DNA from: Paludisphaera rhizosphaerae
GTDB lineage: Bacteria; Planctomycetota; Planctomycetia; Isosphaerales; Isosphaeraceae
NCBI RefSeq assembly: GCF_011065895.1
Contig: NZ_JAALCR010000003.1
Span: forward strand, 62,001 to 126,000
Direction: 5' to 3'
DNA length: 64,000 nt
Of the stretch, positions 3,360 through 64,000 are shown piece by piece (position 1 is the stretch's first letter; the number at the start of each line of letters is the position of its first letter). The translations under genes were made by a program, and so were the position numbers. The notes under the pieces are model-generated. The model searched no databases, was not told the origin of the DNA, and was given only the letters and a program-made list of their open reading frames with translations.

Positions 3360-3584
3360 TCAATCCCGCGGATCGTCGTCGGAGTCGTCACTCCCGTCAT
3401 CCCATCTCAGGCCGAGCGCCGCAAGCTCGTCGGCGGGGACTTGCTCGAAACGGCTGAGGAGGAAGTCCCGGCCCCAGTCCTCGTTCTCGATCGCCTCCAG
3501 CGGCGGGAGCGAGACGCCGGGCCGGGCGGCGAGGATCGCGTAAGCCTCGGCGACGCCCAGTTCGACCACGGGCTTCAGCTTCAT
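3360..3584 (-). CDS. Small acidic-tailed protein coupled to the site-2 protease gene
   Basis: The 74-residue protein starts at an ATG that overlaps the TGA of the site-2 protease gene (ATGA), the usual arrangement for translational coupling. A GTG five codons upstream is a possible alternative start. The N-terminal half looks folded (VVELGVAEAYAILAARPG). The C-terminus ends in an acidic run of Asp, Glu and Ser. No domain is recognised. Tight linkage to an intramembrane protease suggests a partner or regulator, but this is inference. Confidence 0.65.
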   Translation of the reverse strand: MKLKPVVELGVAEAYAILAARPGVSLPPLEAIENEDWGRDFLLSRFEQVPADELAALGLRWDDGSDDSDDDPRD

Positions 3585-4351
3585 CGACGGCCGCCCCACG
3601 ACGAGGCCGTCGCGTCGACGTGGATCGGAGCCAACCGCCAGACGCCCTGGCCCGTTCGGATCCAGCGGTATCCTGCCGGCGCGCTCCAGTCGGTCCCTCC
3701 GGCATCCTCTCCGTTGCGACGTCGCTCCTCGGCCAGAACTCCCCGCTCCTCAGCGCCGGCCGCCATGTAGATGAACGCGGCCAGTGCGACGTGCATCAAC
3801 TCCCAGTTCAGCAGGCTGTAGACGCCGAAACCGAGCGCCAGCGTTCGACCGACGGCCGCCGCGAAGCTCGTCGCCTTGCCTCGCCCGACCCACCCGCCCA
3901 GCAACGCCCGCAGGACGCGTCCGCCGTCCATCGGAAACGCCGGGATCATGTTGAAGGCGGCGAGCACCAGGTTCATCACCAGCAGATTGGCCATGAAGCC
4001 GCCCGCGCCAACAACCGACCCGACGCCGAGCGTCAGGCAGAGCCCGGCCGCGATCGCCAGGTTCACCGCCGGTCCAGCCAGGGCGATCAGCAACTCGACG
4101 CCCGGCGCGCGAGGCATTCGCGTCAACCGCGCCACCCCGCCGATCGGGTACAGAGTGATGTCCGCCGTCTCGATCCCGAAACGACGGGCCGTGAGGGCGT
4201 GGCCGAACTCATGGAGCAGGACACAGCCGAACATCGCCAGAACGAGCGGCAGGTTCTCCGCAACGCCTGGGAGGAGCAATATCAGCAGAAAAGTCGGATG
4301 CAGGAACACGTCGATCCCCGCGAACCGACCGAGTTTCCAGGACAGGCTCAT
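3581..4351 (-). CDS. Site-2 protease family (M50) intramembrane metalloprotease
   Basis: This is a 256-residue polytopic membrane protein. The zinc-binding motif HEFGH is at residues 47-51 inside a hydrophobic segment. The third-ligand motif (NMIPAFPMDGGRVL) is at about residues 134-147, where the Asp completes the zinc site. Family members cut membrane-embedded regulators such as anti-sigma factors or other integral proteins. It has no CBS or PDZ domain and belongs to the short rhomboid-sized group. A second M50 protein is encoded just upstream on the same strand, separated by a terminator. Its own substrate is unknown; the coupled 74-residue protein is the only local candidate partner. Confidence 0.9.
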   Translation of the reverse strand: MSLSWKLGRFAGIDVFLHPTFLLILLLPGVAENLPLVLAMFGCVLLHEFGHALTARRFGIETADITLYPIGGVARLTRMPRAPGVELLIALAGPAVNLAIAAGLCLTLGVGSVVGAGGFMANLLVMNLVLAAFNMIPAFPMDGGRVLRALLGGWVGRGKATSFAAAVGRTLALGFGVYSLLNWELMHVALAAFIYMAAGAEERGVLAEERRRNGEDAGGTDWSAPAGYRWIRTGQGVWRLAPIHVDATASSWGGRR

Positions 4352-4472
4352 CAGATGTCGTCATCCTTGGTCGAGAGGAGCCGCCGGACGTCGGCGGGCT
4401 TCTCATCGGTACACCTGTCATTCGACGTCAAAGGGTCGAATGTTCGCTTGAAAACGGTCGAGGGGAAGTGAA

Positions 4473-4511
4473 GAAGCCCGGCGGCGATCACGGCGATCGC
4501 CTCCGGGCTTC
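4473..4511 (-). terminator. Terminator of the HlyD/M50 operon
   Basis: Perfect 9-base arms GAAGCCCGG / CCGGGCTTC enclose a further 6-base stem (GGCGAT / ATCGCC) with a 7-base loop. On the minus strand the hairpin is followed by a pyrimidine-rich TTCACTTCCCC stretch. It lies 27 bases after the stop of the last gene of the operon. Confidence 0.75.
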
Positions 4512-4537
4512 GACTCAAATCAAAAGCCTGGACCGCA

Positions 4538-6724
4538 TTAGATGGTGAAGTGGAAGGTCTTGGTGACCATCCGCCACAGCCACCAGCCGAAGGTGTGGGT
4601 GCCGGCGTTGATCTTGGCGAACCCGCGCTGGCCGGGGTGGAACTCCAGGTTGGGGTTGTCGACGGGGATGATGACCTCGTAGACGGTCGACTGAGGCTTG
4701 ACCTGGCCTGTCTTGGGATCGGGCTTGGCGGCGATTTCGCCCCCCGCCGCGTTGGAGAGCTCGGGAGGAATGTCCTCGCGGTTGCGCTTGGCGATCTGGG
4801 AGACCTCGGTCTTCACGGTCTTCTCCGAACGGCCGTAGACCTTCACCCAGGCGGTGGTTTTGTCGTCGAGTCGGATCAGGTCGATGTCCGACTGGTCGAC
4901 GATCAAGTGGGCCTCCAGGTGGTGGGGGTCGGCGACCTCGCAGAACGGCTTGCCGGGCTTGATCCACTGGCCGAGCGTCTCGGGGTGGGGCAGACCGATG
5001 ACCTGGCCGTCCTTGGGAGCGACGATGACGAGCTTGCCGAGTTGCTCGCTGATCTTGGCGAGAGCCGGCTCCAACTCGTCGGCCATGTCGGCGTTCTGAC
5101 GGGCGAGGGCTCGGCCGTCGTTCTCCGTGCTCTGGTTGTACCAGAGAGCCTTGCGAGCGTAGACGTCGTGCTCCGACTGGCGCTGAATCAATTCTTTCTG
5201 CTTCTCACGGTTGACCAGCTTGGCGATGACGTCGCCTTCCTTCACATAGTCGCCGTCGCGGACGGCTAAATCGTAGAGCTGGCCCTCGACCTCGCAGTAG
5301 ATCTCGTTCGGGTGGGCGGGCGAGAGAACCAACGTCCCCTGAACGCGCAGCGGGGTGGGGATCAAAAGGATTCCGGCCACGACGGCTGCGAACGCCGCGG
5401 CGAAGGCGGCCGCACGTGCTTTCTTCACTTTGCGCATCCTCCCGGGCGTGCGTAGGAACTTGAAAATCTGGTAGACGGGCATGGCCAAGAGCGGAATCAG
5501 CGAACCCAGAGCGAGCATGTAACTCACGGCCTGAAGCTTGTACGGCTTCAGGAACTGGGACAGGAAGAACAGGATGCTGAACGTCACCACCCAGCGATAC
5601 ACGTAGCTGGCGACCGCGTAGGTGACGAACAGGGTCCGCCGCGATCGAGGCAGATAGCTCTGAACGGGGACTTCCAACCCCAGCACCTTCTCCTGCAACA
5701 GGTAGGTGAAGAACTGGGTGCTCTTGATCCGCAGGTTGGGGATCTCCAGCCAGTCCGACATCACGTAGTAGCCGTCGTACCGCAGCAGCGGGTTGGCGTT
5801 GAAGAGGACCGTGTTCACCGAACATATAAACATAACGGCCATCGACAGGCTGTTCAGCAACCCTTGCTCGGTGTTGAACCAGACGAACGTCGCGATGCTG
5901 GCCAGGAACAGCTCGACGTAAATGCCGGCGGCCGAGATCCAGATCCGGTGCCACTTGTTGGGGAGCAGCCATGAGTCGGTCACGTCGCAGTAGAGCGCGG
6001 GCGTGAGGACCAGGAACAGCATCCCCATCTCGTGGACCTCGCCGCCGAAGTGCTTGGCGGTGAGGCCGTGGCCGAACTCGTGGATGATCTTCACGACGGC
6101 TAGACTGATCCAGAACGTGAAGATCGTCCACCAGTTGAAGAAGCTCTGAAACTCGGGGAGCTTGCCGTAGAACTGGCTCCACTGGCTGATCACCAGGGTG
6201 ATCGCCGCGAGCATCAGGCCGACGCTCGCGGAGACGAACCAGGGGGTGTAGATCCAGCGGAAGTATGGGTACATCCAGGTCAAGAGCCGCTCAGGGTCGA
6301 TGACCGGGATCTTGATGAACAGAATGTTGGCCAGGAACTGCCAGACCTTCTTCCACTTGTTCTTGCGGCGGCGGCGGATCAGGGCGGAAGCCTGCTCGGG
6401 GCTGTCGATGATGACGACGCCCGCCTCGTGAAGCTGGGCGACGAACCTCGTCAGGTCGTCGATCGAGATCGTCTGGGGCCGGTACTTGCGCTCGAAGGCC
6501 CGCTTGACGTCCTGGAGGTTGTTCTTGCCGTCGAACTGCTGGAGCAGGAAGTACTCCTCGATCTTGAATCGGAAGTACTTCAGCGCCAGCGGGTCCTTGA
6601 CGACGTAGTGAGTCATCCCCTCGTAGAACTGGGGCTGCACCACCAGGTCGGGGCGGAACTTCACCCGCAGGTGTTCAGCGGCCTGCCCGAAGGGCGCCGG
6701 CGTTGTGGAAGGTGCTGCGCTCAT
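4538..6724 (-). CDS. PqqD-like + M50 metalloprotease + HlyD fusion membrane protein
   Basis: The 728 residues comprise several parts. Residues about 30-110 resemble the PqqD-like winged helix (EEYFLLQQFDGKNNLQDVKR, then LHEAGVVI). A polytopic membrane part follows at about 125-440, with HEFGH at 215-219 and NPLLRYDG at 311-318, both zinc-ligand motifs of M50. Residues about 455-700 form a lipoyl-like/beta-barrel HlyD adaptor. The architecture matches the YydH-type 'putative peptide zinc metalloprotease' group, linked in some bacteria to modified-peptide export or protection. It is the last gene of a three-gene operon, 67 bases after the HlyD gene, with AAGGAA before the ATG. No ABC or RND pump gene is nearby. 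The PqqD-like call is by eye and needs a profile search. Confidence 0.85.
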   Translation of the reverse strand: MSAAPSTTPAPFGQAAEHLRVKFRPDLVVQPQFYEGMTHYVVKDPLALKYFRFKIEEYFLLQQFDGKNNLQDVKRAFERKYRPQTISIDDLTRFVAQLHEAGVVIIDSPEQASALIRRRRKNKWKKVWQFLANILFIKIPVIDPERLLTWMYPYFRWIYTPWFVSASVGLMLAAITLVISQWSQFYGKLPEFQSFFNWWTIFTFWISLAVVKIIHEFGHGLTAKHFGGEVHEMGMLFLVLTPALYCDVTDSWLLPNKWHRIWISAAGIYVELFLASIATFVWFNTEQGLLNSLSMAVMFICSVNTVLFNANPLLRYDGYYVMSDWLEIPNLRIKSTQFFTYLLQEKVLGLEVPVQSYLPRSRRTLFVTYAVASYVYRWVVTFSILFFLSQFLKPYKLQAVSYMLALGSLIPLLAMPVYQIFKFLRTPGRMRKVKKARAAAFAAAFAAVVAGILLIPTPLRVQGTLVLSPAHPNEIYCEVEGQLYDLAVRDGDYVKEGDVIAKLVNREKQKELIQRQSEHDVYARKALWYNQSTENDGRALARQNADMADELEPALAKISEQLGKLVIVAPKDGQVIGLPHPETLGQWIKPGKPFCEVADPHHLEAHLIVDQSDIDLIRLDDKTTAWVKVYGRSEKTVKTEVSQIAKRNREDIPPELSNAAGGEIAAKPDPKTGQVKPQSTVYEVIIPVDNPNLEFHPGQRGFAKINAGTHTFGWWLWRMVTKTFHFTI

Positions 6725-6791
6725 CGATCGGCGTTCCTTGGCGGTTCGGTTCGGGGTGCTCCGCGTCCCGCTCCCGGCGTCGCGGCGGGTC

Positions 6792-7724
6792 TCAGCGAGC
6801 CGGGGCCGTGGGTCGGGCGGCGACGTCGTCGCCGAGGTAAATGGTCATCGCCGCCTTGATGCCCGGCCGCAGCTCGAAGGAGGAGTTCTCGAACTCGGCC
6901 CGGATCCGCACGGCGCTTTCGCCGACGGCCTGGACGTTGGGGTCGATGAACTTGACGACGCCGCGGAATGTCTTTCGCTCGATCGGCTGGTCGCCTCGGC
7001 TCCCTTCCAGACGCGGCTGGATCTCGACCACCTGGCCGACTTTTATCCGGGAGTAATAGTCGATCGGTACGAACGCGGTGGCTGAAAGACGCGACAGGTT
7101 GCCGATCTGGACGACCGCCTCATTGGCCCGGACGCTCTCGCCCGGTTCCTTGTAGCGCTTGATGACGATTCCCGCGAACGGGGCCGCGATGGTGTGCTCC
7201 TTGAGCATCTGGACGGCCAGGGCCAGTTCGGCCTCATTGATGGCGTCCTGCTCCATGGCCTCGCGAAGCTGAGCCTCGGCGACCTTGGCCTCGCCCTCGG
7301 CCTTGGTCATCTCCTCCTGGGAGACACTGTCAGGACGGTACTTGATGAGGCGGCGGTTGCGGGCGACGACCGACGCGGCGACTTCCATGGCGGCCTTGGC
7401 CTTCATGGCCGGCCCCTCGTTCTCGGCCGTGAGCTTCGCCTTGGCGACGGTCAGCTCCGCGATCTCCTTGTGGATCGCTCCGATCACGGCCCCCTCCTGG
7501 ACGGAGTCGCCGTAGGTGATCTCCATTTTCTCGATGACCCCCTCGCGGAGGGCGGCGACGTCCGACTTCTCGATCCAGTCGATGGTGGCGAGCTGATCGT
7601 GGGAGTCGAGGACGAGGGTGGCGGCGGACGGCGACTGGCCGGCCCCTCCCTGACCGAAGGAGGCGACGGAGAGGGTCGCCAGAGCGCTCAGGGCCACGGA
7701 CGCTGCGGTCTTCAGGGGCGACAT
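6792..7724 (-). CDS. Periplasmic adaptor (HlyD/RND membrane-fusion) protein
   Basis: The 310-residue protein has an N-terminal signal peptide (about residues 1-29). It then has a lipoyl-like half (DVAALREGVIEKMEITYGDS), a helical hairpin of about 90 residues, the second lipoyl half (AAPFAGIVIKRYKEPGESV) and a beta-barrel domain. Such adaptors bridge an inner-membrane pump to an outer-membrane channel. Here the neighbours are two other HlyD-domain proteins and no pump or TolC gene. It starts at ATG with GGAGG 11 bases upstream. It is the middle gene of the operon, so it probably oligomerises with the HlyD parts of the flanking gene products; that is inference. Confidence 0.88.
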   Translation of the reverse strand: MSPLKTAASVALSALATLSVASFGQGGAGQSPSAATLVLDSHDQLATIDWIEKSDVAALREGVIEKMEITYGDSVQEGAVIGAIHKEIAELTVAKAKLTAENEGPAMKAKAAMEVAASVVARNRRLIKYRPDSVSQEEMTKAEGEAKVAEAQLREAMEQDAINEAELALAVQMLKEHTIAAPFAGIVIKRYKEPGESVRANEAVVQIGNLSRLSATAFVPIDYYSRIKVGQVVEIQPRLEGSRGDQPIERKTFRGVVKFIDPNVQAVGESAVRIRAEFENSSFELRPGIKAAMTIYLGDDVAARPTAPAR

Positions 7725-7774
7725 AAGGGGCGAACCTCCACTCGGGTCGATCGATTCATGCGGTGTGGGGGAAG

Positions 7775-7800
7775 GCGGCCCGGCCGACGCGCCGGGCCGC
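7775..7800. other. Strong intercistronic hairpin
   Basis: Perfect 10-base GC-only arms (GCGGCCCGGC / GCCGGGCCGC) with a 6-base loop sit between the first and second genes of the HlyD/M50 operon. There is no T-run, so it is more likely an mRNA-stability or partial-attenuation element than a full terminator. Confidence 0.6.
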
Positions 7801-7823
7801 GGTGGGTTCGGGTGAGTGCGGTC

Positions 7824-9920
7824 TCACTGAAGGAACGGCCAGCGGAAGAGGACCGACTCGTGCCACACCTGGACGACCTTGCGGAACAGGACGTAGGCCA
7901 GGCGGGCGTCGCCGCAGTCGATCCGGGCGCGGACCTCGGCGCCGGGGCGGAACTCCTGGTTGCGGGCCAGGAACTCGTTGCGAACCGCGTCGCTGAAGCC
8001 GACGGTCACCTTGACCGTGTGCCGCTGCTCAGCGCTCTCGGTCTTGGTCTCGGCCTTGGAAGCGATCCGGCGGATGTAGCCCTGGTAGCGGTGCTCGGGC
8101 TCGGTCATCACCACGAAGTAGGCCGGGAGGGCCGAGCCGGCCGGCTTGGTTCCGGCGGCGACCTCGGCGTCGAGCTTGGACTTGGCGGCCAGGATCGGCC
8201 CCATGTCGTCGTCGGGGACCTCGACCTCCAGAATCCACTCGCCGTCGGTCGCGGCGACCTGGAGCAGTTCGGTGCCGATGTCGACGGGACGACCCATCAG
8301 GTTCTTCTTCACCTCCCAGGTCGTGACGATCCCGTCCTGAGGCGAGGTGATCGTCATCGCCTGGATCTGTTCCTTGGTGATCTCGATCTGCTCCCGGGCG
8401 CTCCGGGCGGTGAGAAGGGCCTCGGAATGCTGGGCCATCAACTGATAGGTTTCGCTGTTGTTCTGCGACGTCCGGTTGGTCGCCTCGATCTGGCGGCCCA
8501 GGATGTTCGCCTGGTTCTCCGCCTTGCCGAAGTCGGCCTGGAGCTTCTTCAGCTCCTTCTCAAGCTCCCGGCTGTCCAGTCGGGCGATCATCTCGCCCTT
8601 CGCGACGTGGTCGCCGTGCTCCTTGGGGACCTCCGCGATGATGCCCGGGTTGGGGGCGTAGACGATGCTCCGGTTCTCCGGCAGCAGCGAGCCCCGGCCC
8701 TCGATCCGGAGGTTCCAGGGGACCAGGGTCAACGCGCCGATCACTGTCACGACCAGAGCCAGGACGGCGAGGATCTTGGCCAGCGTCCGCCCCCGCAGCA
8801 GCCGCCAGGGGGAACCCATCGCCTTGAGGACCGGCCGGAGGAAGATCCGGTGGTGCTCCTGCGAGTTCCACAAGGCCGTCGACGAGTGCCGCGCGACGAC
8901 CTCGGTCCGGGCGTGCATGTCGGTCGGGGCGATCTCGTCGCCGATCTGCTCGGCGACCAGGCAGCCGTAGGGAACCTTCTCCTTGCGTTCGGCCCCCTCT
9001 TCCTTCTCCGGCTTGTAGAGGAGGACGATCGCCAGGGCCTTGGAGCCCGACTCGTCGACGTAAAGCTCCAGAGCGTCGCGGATGTCCGGAGCGAAGCCCT
9101 CGGTGTGTCCGGTGTAGACCAGGTCGTCTCCCGAGCGGATGACGGCCTTGCAGAGCTTGGTCAGCTCGCGGACCTGGTTCGAGCGCTGTTCGACGACTTC
9201 CTGACCGCTGATGGCTTCCACCATCGTCCGGCCCGAGACCTTCATGGCGACGCTGAGGCGGTCGCAACCGACCAGCCGCTTGCCGTCGTTGACGACGGCG
9301 TAGGTCGTCTCCTTGAAGTCGAGCGTGTGGTGGACCTGGTGGGTGAACGTCTCCAACTGGTTCCAGAGCCGCTGCTGCGACACCATCTGCCGCATCTGGC
9401 GGTTCTTCAGATAGTTGGCCGCCAGGTCGGTGAGGTCGCCGACGAACCGAAGCGTGCTCTTCTGCTGGGCCGCCCGCCGGTTGGGATCCATCAGGATCTC
9501 AAGCAGACCGACGACCTGCTTATCAACAATAAGGGGAGCCAGGATGATCGCCAGGTGCGTGGGGTTGAACGCCTGCGGCATCCCCTCGATCACTGCACCG
9601 GGCGGAATCACCTGCGGCTGAGAGGCCTGGATCATGCAGCCCAGCAACTGGTCGTGCGGGGCCGTCTTGACCCGGCCGTCCATCAGGCCGGTCTGGGCGA
9701 ATTCGAGCTGATACTGGAGCCGGAGCCCTCCCCGGCCGTCGAGGAGCCAGAACGCGCCGCCGGAGGCCGCGGTGGCCGCCACAGCCCGGTTGAGGAACTC
9801 GCCGTAGAACTCGTTCGGCTGGACGTCCGACTCGGCGAGGTCGGCGATCTCGGCCACCAACTTACGGATCTGGTTCTTCGTCTGCTCGAGCAGACCGGCG
9901 TCGATGGTTTCTTCCGGCAT
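7824..9920 (-). CDS. GAF-domain / HlyD fusion membrane protein
   Basis: This 698-residue protein begins with GAF-like cytoplasmic sensor sequence. A first module spans about residues 20-170 (HLAIILAPLIVDKQVVGLLEI) and a second about 200-350. A single membrane segment follows at about 378-398 (AKILAVLALVVTVIGAL), then a HlyD-type periplasmic part with lipoyl halves, a coiled-coil hairpin (about 430-510) and a beta-barrel. A GAF sensor fused to an export adaptor is unusual and implies ligand-controlled assembly or gating. It is the first gene of the minus-strand operon, starting at ATG 342 bases from the divergent porin. Standard annotation would see only the adaptor or only the GAF part. Confidence 0.83.
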   Translation of the reverse strand: MPEETIDAGLLEQTKNQIRKLVAEIADLAESDVQPNEFYGEFLNRAVAATAASGGAFWLLDGRGGLRLQYQLEFAQTGLMDGRVKTAPHDQLLGCMIQASQPQVIPPGAVIEGMPQAFNPTHLAIILAPLIVDKQVVGLLEILMDPNRRAAQQKSTLRFVGDLTDLAANYLKNRQMRQMVSQQRLWNQLETFTHQVHHTLDFKETTYAVVNDGKRLVGCDRLSVAMKVSGRTMVEAISGQEVVEQRSNQVRELTKLCKAVIRSGDDLVYTGHTEGFAPDIRDALELYVDESGSKALAIVLLYKPEKEEGAERKEKVPYGCLVAEQIGDEIAPTDMHARTEVVARHSSTALWNSQEHHRIFLRPVLKAMGSPWRLLRGRTLAKILAVLALVVTVIGALTLVPWNLRIEGRGSLLPENRSIVYAPNPGIIAEVPKEHGDHVAKGEMIARLDSRELEKELKKLQADFGKAENQANILGRQIEATNRTSQNNSETYQLMAQHSEALLTARSAREQIEITKEQIQAMTITSPQDGIVTTWEVKKNLMGRPVDIGTELLQVAATDGEWILEVEVPDDDMGPILAAKSKLDAEVAAGTKPAGSALPAYFVVMTEPEHRYQGYIRRIASKAETKTESAEQRHTVKVTVGFSDAVRNEFLARNQEFRPGAEVRARIDCGDARLAYVLFRKVVQVWHESVLFRWPFLQ

Positions 9921-10262
9921 GGTGCCACCAGTTCGTTAAGGGGCCGGGGTCGGCGTCCTCCCCGGCGGGGTCGGTCCCACGCGCGAGGCCGCTTGACGAA
10001 GACAACGGGACGACCACTTCGACCATGTTCCTGACGTCATCGTCAGTTTTCCTGCCGCCCGACCGCATCTGCGACGCAAACCCAATCGTGTCCAGGAGGT
10101 TGAGTTCGAAATCGACATCAAAAAAGAAATAAAGCCGATCAAGTGGAGACGGCTAGCGGGCCGATGAATCGCCGCGTACGCACCACATCGAAAATCTGCC
10201 GCAGAGGGCCTCAACCAGGAGGCCCAGCTAAACCAGGAAAACGAGGGGGAATCGGCGGACAC
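9921..10262. other. Divergent intergenic region, GAF-HlyD operon / porin
   Basis: These 342 bases must hold the promoters of both the minus-strand HlyD/M50 operon and the plus-strand porin. The stretch 10110-10135 is A-rich (runs of A and ATAAA), unlike the surroundings. I found no hexamer pair good enough to call and no small gene. Confidence 0.5.
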
Positions 10263-11909
10263 ATGCGGTCCCAGTTGTTCCTTGCGCTGGCGTTGGGATG
10301 CATCGCGATCGGAGCGGCGGCCGAGGAGCCGAAGCCGCCCCGCGATCCGGCGGCCCGTCGCGCTCGGACGGATGCGGAGGCCGTCGACGCTCGCCTTCGA
10401 GAGCTGGAGGCCATGAACCGGGCGATCCTCGAACGCCTCGACCGATCCGAGCGCGAGCGCGAGGCGGCCGACGAACGCTATCGATCCCTGGAAGGAAAGT
10501 ACGACGAGCTTCGCCGTCGAGTCAGCGCCGAGGGGACCGATGAGGAAGGGCCCGGCACGTCGTTGGAGGCTCTGCCGGACGCGGTGCCGGAAGCCGTCGA
10601 AGCCCGGCGGTCGAATCGGGCCGAGTACGAGCCGAGCGGCGACCTGGCCTCCGAGGGAAGTCGAAGGCCCGGCGTGGAGGACCTGGACCTCCAGGGGATC
10701 TTCGGCAGCGAGGGGTTCGGCTTCAAGAGCCTCGATGACGAGTATCAGCTTCGGTTCCGGGTCCTCGATCAGACCGACTTCAAGGTCTTCTCACCGGGCA
10801 ACCAGGTGCCGGCCACTAGCGGCCTGTACATCCCCCGCGTCCGAATCTACTTCGAGGGAAACCTCACGCGGCTGTTCGACTACGAGGTCTCCATCCAGCG
10901 CAGCGTCGAGGGGGTCTGGGACCTGCTCGACGGCAACGTCGACATCAACATCGACCCTCGCTTCCGACTCAAGTTCGGCCGGACTCTGGTCCCCTACAGC
11001 TACGACTGGTACGACCACCTGGAGCAGTATTTCATCACCCCCGAGCGGTCGCTCTTTCCGCTCAATTTCGGCCTCTCGCGATCAGTGGGGTTGATGGCGC
11101 ATGGACGCCTCTTCGACGGCCGGCTGCAGTACGCCGTCGGCGGCTTCGACGGCCACCTCGTCGGTCTGGCCGACGACAACACCACCCGCGACGTCGTCTC
11201 GTACATCAACACCCGGCCATTCCTGAGGTCTGAGGAATTCCCCCTCCTGCGCGACCTTAACCTGGGCATCTCCGGCTATATGGGCCAGCAGATCGCGCCG
11301 CAGGCGCCCTTGCCGATGCGAACCTCGATCCAGTCGTCCGAGAACGACGAGGCGGCCGCCCGGGCCAGCTCCGTGTTCCTCGAATGGGACGACCGCGCGT
11401 TTCTGCTGGGAGGCCACAGCGCTCTGGCGGCCCACATCGCCTGGTACGTCGGCGGCCTCTCCTTCGAGGCGGAGTGGCAGGGGAGCCGCGACCGCTACGC
11501 CCTCAGCGGCGGGCCCTTGCACCCGTTGTCGGTCCCGGTGAAGGGGAACCACTTCACGCTCGCCTACTTCCTCACCGGTGAGAAGGTCCGCGACCGCAGC
11601 CGCGTCGATCCCCTCCATCCCTTCGATCCGGCGAAGCACTCGTGGGGGCCCGGGGCGATCGAGCTGTTCGCCCGTTACAGCGAGCTTCAGCTTGGCGACG
11701 AGCTTTTCCGCGCCGGCCTGGCCGACCCCAACAAGTGGACCAACGGCATGGGCATGACCGACATCGGCCTGAACTGGTACCTGACGAGCTACATCAAGAT
11801 CTACCTTGACTGGCAGCGGTCGTACTACGACACCCCCGTCCAGCTCAATGAGAACCTCCGCAGCCTCCGCAACGACCTCTTCTGGATCCGCGGCCAGCTC
11901 TACTACTGA
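10263..11909 (+). CDS. OprP/OprO-type outer-membrane porin with coiled-coil N-terminus
   Basis: The likely start is the ATG at 10263, giving 548 residues with a Sec signal peptide (MRSQLFLALALGCIAIGAAA). A charged coiled coil at about residues 30-90 follows, as in planctomycete porins tethered or trimerised by an N-terminal helix. The rest is a beta-barrel of the phosphate-selective porin O/P family (LYIPRVRIYFEGNLTRLFDY; FGRTLVPYSYDWYDHLEQYF). It ends in aromatic residues (QLYY), as expected for outer-membrane insertion. It transports small anions or solutes across the outer membrane; specificity cannot be read. The divergent position suggests it may serve as outer-membrane partner of the neighbouring adaptors, but this is speculative. 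Confidence 0.85.
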   Translation: MRSQLFLALALGCIAIGAAAEEPKPPRDPAARRARTDAEAVDARLRELEAMNRAILERLDRSEREREAADERYRSLEGKYDELRRRVSAEGTDEEGPGTSLEALPDAVPEAVEARRSNRAEYEPSGDLASEGSRRPGVEDLDLQGIFGSEGFGFKSLDDEYQLRFRVLDQTDFKVFSPGNQVPATSGLYIPRVRIYFEGNLTRLFDYEVSIQRSVEGVWDLLDGNVDINIDPRFRLKFGRTLVPYSYDWYDHLEQYFITPERSLFPLNFGLSRSVGLMAHGRLFDGRLQYAVGGFDGHLVGLADDNTTRDVVSYINTRPFLRSEEFPLLRDLNLGISGYMGQQIAPQAPLPMRTSIQSSENDEAAARASSVFLEWDDRAFLLGGHSALAAHIAWYVGGLSFEAEWQGSRDRYALSGGPLHPLSVPVKGNHFTLAYFLTGEKVRDRSRVDPLHPFDPAKHSWGPGAIELFARYSELQLGDELFRAGLADPNKWTNGMGMTDIGLNWYLTSYIKIYLDWQRSYYDTPVQLNENLRSLRNDLFWIRGQLYY

Positions 11910-62323: not shown

Positions 62324-62728
62324 CTCCATGAAAACGGCGCCTGATCGTCGGCCCGGGCAGACTCGTTCCTGGCTCTCCCAGCGTATTCCGGCTGAATGAG
62401 GATGCCTCGAAGGGGAACGCGGCGAGCCAGGCATGGCTCGAACCGACGCCTACTTACGCCCAGGTTCCTCGCGCCGAAATCCACCGCGTTGCAGCGAGAC
62501 GCGCCCCCTTTGACAGGGGCTCGATGGATCGCTTTAATACATGCACGTGGCAGTGAATGCTGCCCTCCTTTTATGGTATCGAGCGCCGACGCGGTCGTCG
62601 GGCTCGACCTATGAGGGGTTCCGCCTGCTCGCATACCGACCGGCGGCGTCGTGCACGCCCCGTCGACCCCCTTCCTCGCCTGTCGCTCCTCCTCGACTCA
62701 GGCGACCGATCATTAAAAGGGATTTACA
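62324..62728. other. Gene-free region before the delta-60 repeat protein
   Basis: These 405 bases show one clear hairpin at 62423-62440 (CGAGCCA-GGCA-TGGCTCG) and no convincing gene. A short TTTAATAC stretch near 62533 could be a -10 region. Confidence 0.5.
62423..62440. terminator. Possible terminator of the AraC-type gene
   Basis: A 7-4-7 stem-loop about 100 bases after the stop. Without a T-run it is only weakly supported. Confidence 0.35.
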
Positions 62729-64000
62729 ATGAGCGCCCTGGCTCAGGATCCGTCGTTTCGTCGTCCGACTCGTCGTCCTCGGCATGCAACGCACAGGCGG
62801 CCGCGATTCGACGCCCTAGAGGACCGTCGGCTCCTGACGCTTTCCGTGCTGAGCGTGAGAATCATGGCCGACTCGATCGCCACCGACGGCGGCCCTGCCG
62901 CGACCATCGGGACCGTTAGCCGTGGCGTTCCTACGAGCCAGGCGTTGACCGTTTCCCTGACGAGTTCTACCCCGAGCGCGGTCTCTGTGCCGGCTTCGGT
63001 CGTGATCCCGGCGGGCCAGACTTCGGCCAACTTCGTCGTGGACGCCACGCCCGGCAACTCGACGATCGGAGATCAGCTCGTCACGATCACGGCTAAGGCA
63101 GAGATTGGCGACCCTCTCAGCAAGGATTCTTCTTTTTCTACCCGGGCCCTCTCTTTCAATGGAGCCGCGGCGACCACGCAATGGGACGGCAAGATCATCG
63201 CGGCGGGGTCGGTGTACACGACATCCTCCAATTTCGCCGTCCAGCGGTTCAATGCGGACGGTTCTCCCGACGCGACGTTCAACAACGGCTTGGCCGCCGT
63301 CCTCGGGATGACAGGACGGTCCATGGTGGGCAAGGCCGTCGCCGTCCAGGCCGACGGCAAGATCCTCGTCGGCGGCTACTTCCAGGACCAGGGCTCCTCG
63401 ACCTGGAACATGCAACTCGCCCGGCTCACCGCCGACGGCCGGCTCGACTCCTCGTTCGGGACCGGCGGCTGGGTGACCCTCATCCCCACGTCGGGCTTCT
63501 ATAACGAGATCTGGGACCTGGCCGTGCTCTCGGACGGGAAAATCCTGATCGGCGGCTCCATCTACAACTCCAGCACTTCCAACGACTTCGCCGTCGTACG
63601 GCTGAACTCAATCGGGTCGCTCGATTCGACCTTCGGGAGTGGCGGCTACGCCACGACCAGCTTCTCGAACGGCAGCGATCGAGGCTACAAGCTGGCGGTG
63701 CAGCCCGACGGCAAAATCCTCCTGGCGGGGTCGAGCTTCGGCGGCAACGCCAGCTCCACATTCGCCGTCGCCCGCTGGACGTCCGACGGCCGGCTCGACT
63801 CCGCGTTCGGCTCGGGCGGCAAGCTCGCGACCGACGTCCCGGGGAACTACGACGAGGCGAGGGGCGTCGCCGTCCAGCCCGACGGGAAAATCTTGGTGGC
63901 CGGCTCTTCCAGCAACGGGATGACCATGGTCCGCTACTCGGCGGCCGGAACCCTGGATGCCTCCTTCGGGACTGGCGGGATCGTCACAAAGAGCTCCGCG
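62729..64000 (+). CDS. Delta-60 repeat surface protein, 3' end outside the window
   Basis: The 424 visible residues have no stop before the window edge. The N-terminus is basic, then FDALEDRRLLT (about residues 27-37), the motif at the start of many large planctomycete exported proteins. A Calx-beta-like sandwich follows (about 45-130). From about residue 155 on there are repeats of about 55-60 residues: VQPDGKILVAGSS, FAVARWTSDGRLDSAFGSGG and close variants. These are delta-60 beta-propeller-like repeats of extracellular proteins, sometimes calcium-binding. The start is ATG preceded by AAAAGGGATTTACA. A full-length protein may be much larger. Confidence 0.85.
   Translation, partial: MSALAQDPSFRRPTRRPRHATHRRPRFDALEDRRLLTLSVLSVRIMADSIATDGGPAATIGTVSRGVPTSQALTVSLTSSTPSAVSVPASVVIPAGQTSANFVVDATPGNSTIGDQLVTITAKAEIGDPLSKDSSFSTRALSFNGAAATTQWDGKIIAAGSVYTTSSNFAVQRFNADGSPDATFNNGLAAVLGMTGRSMVGKAVAVQADGKILVGGYFQDQGSSTWNMQLARLTADGRLDSSFGTGGWVTLIPTSGFYNEIWDLAVLSDGKILIGGSIYNSSTSNDFAVVRLNSIGSLDSTFGSGGYATTSFSNGSDRGYKLAVQPDGKILLAGSSFGGNASSTFAVARWTSDGRLDSAFGSGGKLATDVPGNYDEARGVAVQPDGKILVAGSSSNGMTMVRYSAAGTLDASFGTGGIVTKSSA

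Follow-up and report, generated by a model that had tools for sequence, protein, structure and literature searches.

The operon at positions 4538–9920 of the window (the whole 64-kb stretch of DNA analysed) is, in our judgement, rather likely to encode the envelope components of a machine that is dedicated to the secretion of very large repeat proteins and also processes their leaders. Genome comparisons suggest that this widespread machine recognises a short N-terminal tag of giant surface proteins and exports them, with the tag probably being cut off. A role in export had already been proposed from the letters alone, and is supported here. That sequence-only reading had also listed three genes encoding GAF-HlyD, HlyD and M50-HlyD proteins, and these were confirmed, with ORFs at the coordinates given here and Pfam domains in agreement; all three lie on the minus strand, separated by gaps of 99 bases (A–B) and 67 bases (B–C). 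The features of the operon, and of a candidate cargo gene in the same window, are:

7824–9920, minus strand: gene A, 698 aa, GAF-GAF-TM-HlyD (ORF call and Pfam)
6792–7724, minus strand: gene B, 310 aa, HlyD-type periplasmic adaptor with a hydrophobic N-terminus
4538–6724, minus strand: gene C, 728 aa, RRE/PqqD-like domain, then M50 membrane protease, then HlyD adaptor
6365–6673, minus strand: predicted RRE/PqqD-like N-terminal domain of gene C, residues 18–120 (AF2 pLDDT 90.7)
6068–6082, minus strand: M50 active site HEFGH of gene C, residues 215–219, invariant in homologues
5774–5776, minus strand: third zinc ligand D317 of gene C, invariant in homologues
4784–5350, minus strand: HlyD barrel-sandwich/hairpin region of gene C, residues 459–647 (Pfam; Foldseek to MexA/MacA, E 3e-12)
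62717–64000, plus strand: start of the candidate cargo ORF, a stop-to-stop frame of 1774 codons that runs off the window

In Pfam searches gene A matched GAF (2.5e-7, in two stretches), HlyD_3 (4.8e-11) and also HlyD_D23; it has a hydrophobic stretch at about residues 383–401, and we infer a topology in which a cytoplasmic sensor is joined to a periplasmic adaptor. Gene B matched HlyD_D23 (Pfam, 7.2e-18) and TIGR01730 (1.7e-30), and gene C matched Peptidase_M50 (3.7e-9) and HlyD_3 (3.8e-11). By sequence, gene C found two weak matches only in the PDB (E 0.08 and 0.22), whilst the 50 Foldseek matches listed for its full model were all of the adaptor type. The earlier statement that no pump accompanies these adaptors holds for the operon itself, where Pfam detected no ABC, MFS or RND pump domain in the three products, but not for the genome, which encodes a SecA-type motor elsewhere. 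Rfam gave zero matches at gathering thresholds within the window.

The N-terminus of gene C is predicted to form a beta-sheet plus three-helix winged-helix structure, and this modelled PqqD/RRE fold is new relative to the published description of the module. Comparison of the domain model with the RRE of TbiB1 with leader peptide (5v1v_A) gave a VIA Z of 11.0 (rmsd 2.9, 87 aligned), and with PqqD (5sxy) a VIA Z of 9.1; the best Foldseek E-value was only 0.01. Structure matches also included the non-RRE proteins PKMT and MINA53, from which an RRE-like fold is known as well. The resemblance to PqqD that had been read from the letters is upheld by the fold match and by profile searches, in which 21 of 36 gene C homologues (a set that includes the window's own gene C) reached E ≤ 0.1, with a best value of 1e-7, though the window protein itself scores below the cut-off (E 0.19; 12.5 bits against 23.4).

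Among 45 family genomes, 43 have gene C, near full length in 40 and as fragments in three; in G016 and G019 the adaptor part alone was matched, and weakly. All three genes were seen together in 14 of 19 family regions, at least one gene in the other five being apparently hidden by a longer ORF from the simple ORF caller. Across the phylum, another A/B-type gene adjoins C in 55 of 60 regions, and among 80 loci taken from genome contigs, some of them short, A was present in 63 and B in 68. Thus, the two outcomes that the sequence-only reading had named as damaging to itself, a lack of PqqD similarity in profile searches and a gene order confined to the genus, both failed to appear: homologues match the profile, the fold is PqqD-like, and the gene order is kept far beyond the genus.

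The surroundings of the operon agreed less well with what had been proposed. A porin is indeed encoded divergently (Porin_O_P, 1e-13), but its suggested part as outer-membrane exit did not hold up, as a homologue divergent from gene A occurs only in L035, L036 and L052, three regions of one genus among the 19 examined for the family; L040 has a 33 % porin match, but on the gene C side. The porin was therefore rejected as a conserved exit. The terminator said to close the operon was not recovered either: a scan of 4000–10300 found no terminator-like site on the operon's strand and four on the plus strand, compared with 4.2 ± 2.1 in shuffles. For the stand-alone M50 gene downstream (3581–4351), no homologue was found in the 19 family regions. 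A small DUF3467 protein, by contrast with a variable precursor, is a conserved domain protein, and its recurrence next to the module (27 of 141 module loci) is a new observation. A profile search of the PDB with DUF3467 gave one weak unrelated match only, and its candidacy as a SecB-like chaperone was not supported (hhalign against the single sequence of E. coli K-12 SecB, probability 0.1 %).

The module does not seem to be without an energy source, which is probably a secondary SecA. Such a protein occurs in 44 of 45 family genomes, its gene lying away from the operon in the window's family; in the window genome it is on contig C22, the operon being on C3. This copy has DEAD, PP_bind and a P-loop, whereas Pfam showed neither SecA_SW nor SEC-C in it at E ≤ 0.001. 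In a tree it clusters with SecAs of the module (support 99/97), and a branch with support 100/100 has the canonical SecAs on one side. Elsewhere the SecA gene lies beside C (19 of 60 phylum regions and nine of 80 contig loci), with the order SecA-A-B-C in eight of nine loci. Of the 57 genomes that carry gene C or a paralogue of it, 45 have at least two SecA_DEAD genes and 12 a single one, whereas at least two are present in four of the 138 genomes without it (p 3e-28, a value that, like the other co-occurrence p values, ignores phylogeny). An enriched SecA model applied to loci without SecA recovered one divergent copy (L128, 170.7 bits).

Candidates for the cargo came from plasmid-borne relatives of the module, in 15 of 18 of which a giant same-strand ORF lies directly upstream (it is absent from L275 and L283), and all nine giants read from plasmid operons carry [LFI]E[PA]Rx[LM][LFY] at the N-terminus. 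The related motif LEPR-XLL was detected in 16 of 195 planctomycete genomes, 15 of which have both gene C (p 2.8e-8) and a second SecA (p 2.1e-9), phylogeny again being ignored; for LEPR-XLL genomes outside the class, gene C was present in 12 of 13. The window genome has a match to this model (NF012209; G000:C37:21494, 25.3 bits versus a cut-off of 17). With a custom leader profile, matches came from 33 of the 57 gene C genomes and from nine of the 138 that lack the gene, and every one of the 23 genomes with at least two matches has gene C; at E ≤ 0.01, 24 of the 57 had zero matches. Within the window, the candidate cargo ORF, found by its motif LEDRRLL and not by the NF012209 model, has RRPRFDALEDRRLLT near the N-terminus, and cadherin/Ig-like repeats. 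A leader is present, too, in a 1653-aa ORF located next to a DUF3467 gene. The window's candidate cargo ORF does not adjoin the operon, beside which there is no SecA, DUF3467 or leader-protein gene. By a crude measure, leader hydropathy (0.6–1.9) is not clearly separated from that of a signal peptide (2.1), so ordinary Sec export of the leader proteins is possible. The recurrent cargo-like partners are giant, repeat-bearing proteins whose N-terminus carries a leader, which disfavours the short peptides first suggested as cargo. Searches of the open-access literature, with few subscription papers and no bioRxiv, turned up no paper that connects the module with giant proteins or with LEPR-XLL proteins, and the accessible parts of PMC8277102 and PMC5313232 make no such connection; a giant LEPR-XLL protein of a Vibrio is mentioned in PMC10868602.

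A different account of the same genes, already proposed in print (Kamneva et al., 2015; PMC4452313), is type I-like secretion: the secondary SecA would do no more than replace the usual ATPase, the M50 part would serve simply as a membrane pore, and neither leader reading nor proteolysis would take place. It accommodates the HlyD domains, the membrane helices and the lack of an ABC domain, as well as the TolC genes of plasmid operons and OEP-type genes in some loci (seven in one neighbour cluster, one Pfam-confirmed). Of 141 module regions, 10 contain ABC-transporter-like genes, which do not adjoin the module at L148, the region inspected; the PLSDB tables, which are incomplete, annotate no ABC gene from the giant gene to the last module gene of the plasmid operons, and ABC importer genes lie further along in three plasmid loci. 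Unexpected for a pore, however, is the conservation of the active site: H215, E216, H219 and D317 are identical in 36 of 36 planctomycete homologues, and pattern matching found HExxH in 18 of 18 plasmid homologues and the distal Asp in 17 of 18. With its zinc ligands intact, the M50 protease recognised in the earlier reading stands. Furthermore, type I secretion as usually defined has, to our knowledge, no RRE domain and no shared N-terminal leader, and we regard the pore account as unlikely.

Two further explanations retain the protease. Among curated families, gene C comes closest to the RiPP M50 peptidases that belong to daptides and epipeptides, and the best curated match of its RRE-M50 part is the daptide family NF041824 (residues 42–420, E 5e-53), which matches 36 of 36 gene C homologues. 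These matches and the RRE fold speak for a RiPP-like pathway, favoured by the sequence-only reading, in which the RRE-M50 protein processes short precursors that leave via the HlyD adaptors. The score of gene C (180.5 bits) nevertheless falls under the curated cut-off of 300, placing it outside NF041824 by score; the recurrent small neighbour is no variable precursor, and a giant gene sits immediately upstream in annotated plasmid operons, such that this pathway appears very unlikely. Regulated intramembrane proteolysis, with GAF sensing a ligand, M50 freeing a membrane-bound regulator and HlyD acting as scaffold, would leave the linkage to SecA, TolC and giant genes unexplained, and the recurrent neighbours (some clusters only were identified) are not such regulators. 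It draws on the GAF fusion, the site-2-type active site and PilZ genes beside some module variants (four loci), and we consider it highly improbable.

Returning to a machine for giant proteins, the cargo would have a basic stretch at its start, together with an [LFI]ExRx[LM][LFY] leader that would be bound in the cytoplasm by the RRE/PqqD-like domain of gene C. The chain would be driven by the secondary SecA, in which the motor and preprotein cross-linking domains are kept and the wing-scaffold domain is missing, with DUF3467 as a putative small accessory in the cytoplasm. The M50 site of gene C would take off the leader, the HlyD parts of A, B and C, together with a TolC-type protein encoded elsewhere, would conduct the chain across the envelope, and the GAF domains of gene A may provide gating. 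More tentatively, and with slightly less than even confidence, we propose a distinct secretion class for giants, common to Planctomycetota and Proteobacteria and partly plasmid-borne, which would combine a SecA without wing-scaffold, a fusion of RiPP-style recognition domain, site-2 protease and HlyD, and a TolC route, and would read and remove the N-terminal [LFI]ExRx[LM][LFY] leader; a SecA-less branch would serve DUF4347/Ig-like giants with the leader variant LE[PA]Rx(M/L)(F/Y)DAA.

Bacterial proteins of 4,000–16,000 residues are known in planctomycetes and many Proteobacteria, and for many of these we know of no established export route. If the proposal is correct, an orphan module would gain a cargo and the orphan N-terminal motif LEPR-XLL a function, RiPP-type leader recognition would apply not only to short peptides but also to the largest proteins that bacteria make, and a SecA motor working without the usual wing-scaffold would be predicted. 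Accessory Sec systems (SecA2) likewise have an additional SecA-type ATPase that serves its own class of cargo, but the secondary SecA of the window genome differs in having no wing-scaffold domain. With type I systems (HlyB-HlyD-TolC), which export giant adhesins too (PMC8277102), the module shares HlyD adaptors, TolC-type proteins in some operons and RTX/Ig-like repeat cargo; it differs in its operon without an ABC transporter, its SecA-type motor, N-terminal leader, RRE domain and protease. Daptide MpaP, described as an RRE-dependent leader peptidase, is alike in having an RRE-like domain followed by M50 and an N-terminal LEx-type motif in its cargo (ELExMEAP in daptide precursors), whereas its substrates are short RiPP precursors, found with modifying enzymes, and the accessible part of the report does not describe it with HlyD, SecA or giants (PMC10036551).

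The system is not undescribed, as had been supposed: a module of M50-HlyD, HlyD, GAF-HlyD and a secondary SecA ATPase was reported, its role left open, by Kamneva, Poudel and Ward (2015; PMC4452313), and the operon shares its domain set, type of neighbourhood and phylum. The same authors also name other phyla, and they give META1p2399-2402 as the module genes of Methylobacterium extorquens AM1. Here too the M50-HlyD, HlyD and GAF-HlyD genes lie together and the genome encodes a secondary SecA_DEAD protein without SecA_SW. A SecA in the same locus is usual but not defining for that module, and the window genome has its SecA elsewhere; the same source describes secondary SecAs without SecA_SW or with a fragment only, some copies not being co-encoded with the module. 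Its main text contains no mention of LEPR, giant or PqqD, its four DUF mentions being of DUF1501 and DUF4062 only, and the accessible part proposes no cargo or leader, whereas leader-bearing giants are proposed here. New relative to that work are the RRE fold, as predicted, the invariant M50 ligands, the recurrence of DUF3467 and the association with giant, leader-bearing proteins.

The three ORFs proposed by the sequence-only reading were recovered, and Pfam returned the GAF, HlyD and M50 domains it had assigned to them. They are termed genes A, B and C here, and are listed with their immediate neighbours.

9920..7824, − strand: gene A, GAF and HlyD domains
7724..6792, − strand: gene B, HlyD domain
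6724..4538, − strand: gene C, Peptidase_M50 and HlyD domains
3581-4351, − strand: stand-alone M50 protease (Pfam, 1.7e-20), directly 3' of gene C
10143-11909, + strand: Porin_O_P gene, divergent from gene A

No homologue of the stand-alone protease was found beside the operon in the Isosphaeraceae regions, and the divergent porin layout occurred in three of 19 such regions, all from one genus. That the operon is undescribed, as had been suggested, does not hold, because Kamneva et al. (2015; PMC4452313) reported the module; passages of that paper propose a machine resembling type I secretion, in which SecA is the ATPase and the M50 protein a possible pore, and call its biological role unknown.

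Gene C or a paralogue was present in 57 of 195 sampled planctomycete genomes (E ≤ 1e-40); among 45 Isosphaeraceae genomes, 43 held gene C (40 near full length, three fragments). The 39 other near-full-length family copies showed 63–89 % identity, the best named relative being from Paludisphaera soli JC670 (88 %), and genomes G016 and G019 showed weak similarity to the adaptor region alone. Co-occurrence of the three genes across planctomycetes, a check suggested beforehand, was borne out: gene A was found in 63 and gene B in 68 of 80 named genome-contig loci, some of them on short contigs, and another A- or B-type gene adjoined gene C in 55 of 60 regions around gene C-type genes, several of these from one and the same genome. 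All three were visible in 14 of 19 family regions; in each of the other five, our simple ORF caller had apparently let a longer ORF hide one or more of them. ABC-like genes were seen by eye in 10 of 141 module regions.

The proposed resemblance of the gene C N-terminus to PqqD was supported by many of its homologues and by its predicted fold, but the protein itself matched PqqD below cut-off, at E 0.19 (Pfam). Among 36 alignment members, 21 matched PqqD at E ≤ 0.1 (best 1e-7) and 10 matched TIGR03859 at E ≤ 0.01 (best 3.2e-6). AlphaFold2 predicted a sheet and three-helix fold for residues 18-120 (pLDDT 90.7), for which the best Foldseek matches were leader-bound lasso-peptide RREs (RiPP recognition elements; E ~0.01), with none at E ≤ 0.001. 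VIA-align gave Z 11.0 to the TbiB1 RRE, 10.8 to 6jx3_B, 9.1 to PqqD (5sxy) and 8.3 to the PbtF RRE (8t19); as domains of methyltransferases, PKMT and MINA53 also reach Z 8-9.3, the fold alone is no proof of function. In the protease domain, H215, E216, H219, N309, N311 and D317 were invariant in 36/36 homologues, and a pattern search of plasmid homologues found HExxH in 18/18 and the distal motif in 17/18.

The window genome (8.05 Mb, 110 contigs) has two SecA_DEAD genes, one for a canonical SecA (1262 aa, with SecA_SW, the wing-scaffold domain, and SEC-C) and one, on contig C22, for a secondary SecA (~740-aa frame; DEAD, PP_bind and P-loop). At E ≤ 0.001, SecA_SW was detected neither in this secondary SecA (Pfam) nor in two module-adjacent SecAs tested; parts of PMC4452313 likewise describe secondary SecAs without SecA_SW or with a small fragment left, some copies not being co-encoded with other module genes. 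Near the secondary SecA gene lies a ResIII-type protein (L034, 465-3590, − strand; 1041 aa; Pfam, 2.9e-10). Every family genome except G009 yielded an orthologue of this secondary SecA (44 of 45), and it lies >100 kb from gene C whenever both share a contig; in other lineages a secondary SecA adjoins the module in 19 of 60 regions and nine of 80 loci. Eight of these nine loci read SecA-A-B-C on a single strand, L246 having gene B after C on the opposite strand; in L241 and L246 the contig begins within the SecA frame. In a tree of 49 SecAs, that of the window genome grouped with module-adjacent SecAs (99/97) and a 100/100 branch separated the 19 canonical SecAs from the rest; the remaining module-adjacent SecAs fell elsewhere, outside the canonical branch, and several long branches in the tree leave finer placement uncertain. 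At least two SecA_DEAD genes were found in 45 of 57 genomes with gene C versus four of 138 without (P = 2.8e-28; phylogeny is ignored in this and all our Fisher co-occurrence tests), and the 12 gene C genomes with a single one count against a strict requirement. In four loci PilZ-domain genes were seen upstream of gene A-like genes, and two of the genomes concerned (G187, G151) have a single SecA_DEAD gene; such loci are possibly a c-di-GMP-controlled variant.

L143, 3220-3678: PilZ-domain gene
L148, 3094-3567: PilZ-domain gene
L139, 10945-11448: PilZ-domain gene
L121, 3345-3776: PilZ-domain gene

A ~110-aa DUF3467 protein (Pfam E-values of 3e-16 to 6e-24 in four tested) was encoded in 27 of 141 fetched module regions, by coordinates adjoining gene A or C in every such locus but L173. 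DUF3467 and gene C occurred together in 45 genomes, gene C only in 12, DUF3467 only in 14 and neither in 124 (P = 7.5e-21, phylogeny ignored); in 17 genomes DUF3467 lay ≤ 6 kb from a gene C match (tables compared by hand). In the window genome and several relatives DUF3467 is found a few kb downstream of the canonical SecA (in the window genome on contig C2; L263, 2520-8389), although in other genomes it adjoins the secondary-SecA module. Tandem DUF3467 (at least two matches, ~260-330-aa frames) was seen in G062, G080, G096, G152, G163, G188 and others.

Outside Planctomycetota, evidence for the module comes from plasmids only. A tblastn search with gene C returned 77 plasmid records, some annotated PqqD family protein, and in 15 of the 18 loci examined a same-strand upstream ORF of at least ~2,400 codons, in many cases truncated at the locus edge, adjoined the leading module or TolC gene; of the other three, L270 is truncated at the start of its record and L275 and L283 had no upstream giant.

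Methylosinus: 26.5 kb gene - DUF3467 - GAF-HlyD - PqqD/M50 - SecA-like - HlyD - TolC
Pseudosulfitobacter: 38.2 kb upstream gene
Thalassospira: 12.1 kb upstream gene with LEPR-XLL annotation, followed by DUF3467
Alisedimentitalea: 24.4 kb upstream gene
Variovorax: 48.7 kb upstream gene
Mesorhizobium: 31.6 kb upstream gene

The Methylosinus SecA-like gene, annotated prepilin peptidase, is SecA-like by model and Pfam; no SecA was seen in the Thalassospira locus. A short leader motif, [LFI]E[PA]Rx[LM][LFY], was present in 9/9 giant N-termini examined, namely those six together with Azospirillum, Niveispirillum and Cupriavidus (in Alisedimentitalea in frame upstream of the annotated start, in Cupriavidus in an unannotated ORF). 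Among 1085 putative neighbouring proteins of ≥ 250 aa, spurious ORFs included, [LFIM]E[PA]Rx[LM][LMFY] occurred within the first 110 residues of four, all ≥ 926 aa, and the looser LExRx[LM][LMFY] in nine. One branch (L271, L272, L278, L280, L281 and L282) had no SecA or DUF3467 matches; its order is giant ORF, TolC, HlyD, HlyD, M50-HlyD (fully annotated in L271, L272, L278 and L282), with the leader LE[PA]Rx(M/L)(F/Y)DAA in 4/4 examined (Variovorax, Azospirillum, Niveispirillum and Cupriavidus).

Similar leaders were found in planctomycetes. In the window genome a 1653-aa ORF beside DUF3467 carries LEARPLMAP after a basic stretch, and LEQRALL, LEQRCLL, LEDRCLL or LESRQLL is found in large ORFs of four family regions. 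The NCBIfam LEPR-XLL model (NF012209), built independently of this analysis, matched in 16 of 195 genomes, 15 of which combine gene C with a second SecA (exception, G131; P = 2.8e-8 and 2.1e-9, respectively, phylogeny ignored); among LEPR-XLL genomes from classes other than that of the window, 12 of 13 have gene C. Our own leader profile is not independent, as its rows were ORFs chosen by motif, mostly from module regions; at least 42 genomes had a match, of which 33 hold gene C (P = 3.3e-14, phylogeny ignored), or 29 of 38 without four known row-source genomes (P = 1.8e-12). At least 23 genomes had two or more matches, all with gene C, and matches totalled at least 134 in gene C genomes versus at least nine in those without; in many genomes scoring covered the first 40 candidates. 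At the threshold used, 24 of 57 gene C genomes had no match; the shortness of the motif may be the reason. Module genes are immediately flanked by leader-bearing ORFs in G186, G191, G069, G209 and G236, the G069 frame spanning 3199 codons with RTX, PKD and cadherin-like repeats; in G145 a 3899-codon frame just upstream of the operon has an internal leader match. In 11 proteins the top hydropathy mean over 12 residues near the motif ranged over 0.6-1.9, versus 2.1 for the gene B N-terminus, a crude measure with overlapping values that does not clearly separate leaders from a signal peptide. Two ORFs have near-identical leaders, RRPRFD(A/V)LEDRRLL.

Window 62717-64000, + strand (L291, 718-6039): first ORF, cadherin/Ig-like repeats
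L291, 10609-12000: second ORF, open at the locus end

The simplest account joins these components: the RRE domain of gene C would read the cargo leader, the secondary SecA would drive the chain, the M50 domain would take off the leader, and the export route would consist of the HlyD parts and TolC. With 26 OEP domain matches, the window genome could supply TolC; signal sensing is the probable task of the GAF domains. Beyond gene linkage, we infer every functional step. The top curated match of gene C is the daptide M50 (residues 42-420, E 5e-53, 180.5 bits versus a cut-off of 300). Passages of the daptide study (PMC10036551) describe fusions of RRE domains with a site-2 protease and short ORFs that co-occur with them and bear the motif ELExMEAP at the N-terminus; they present MpaP as an RRE-dependent peptidase that takes off the leader.
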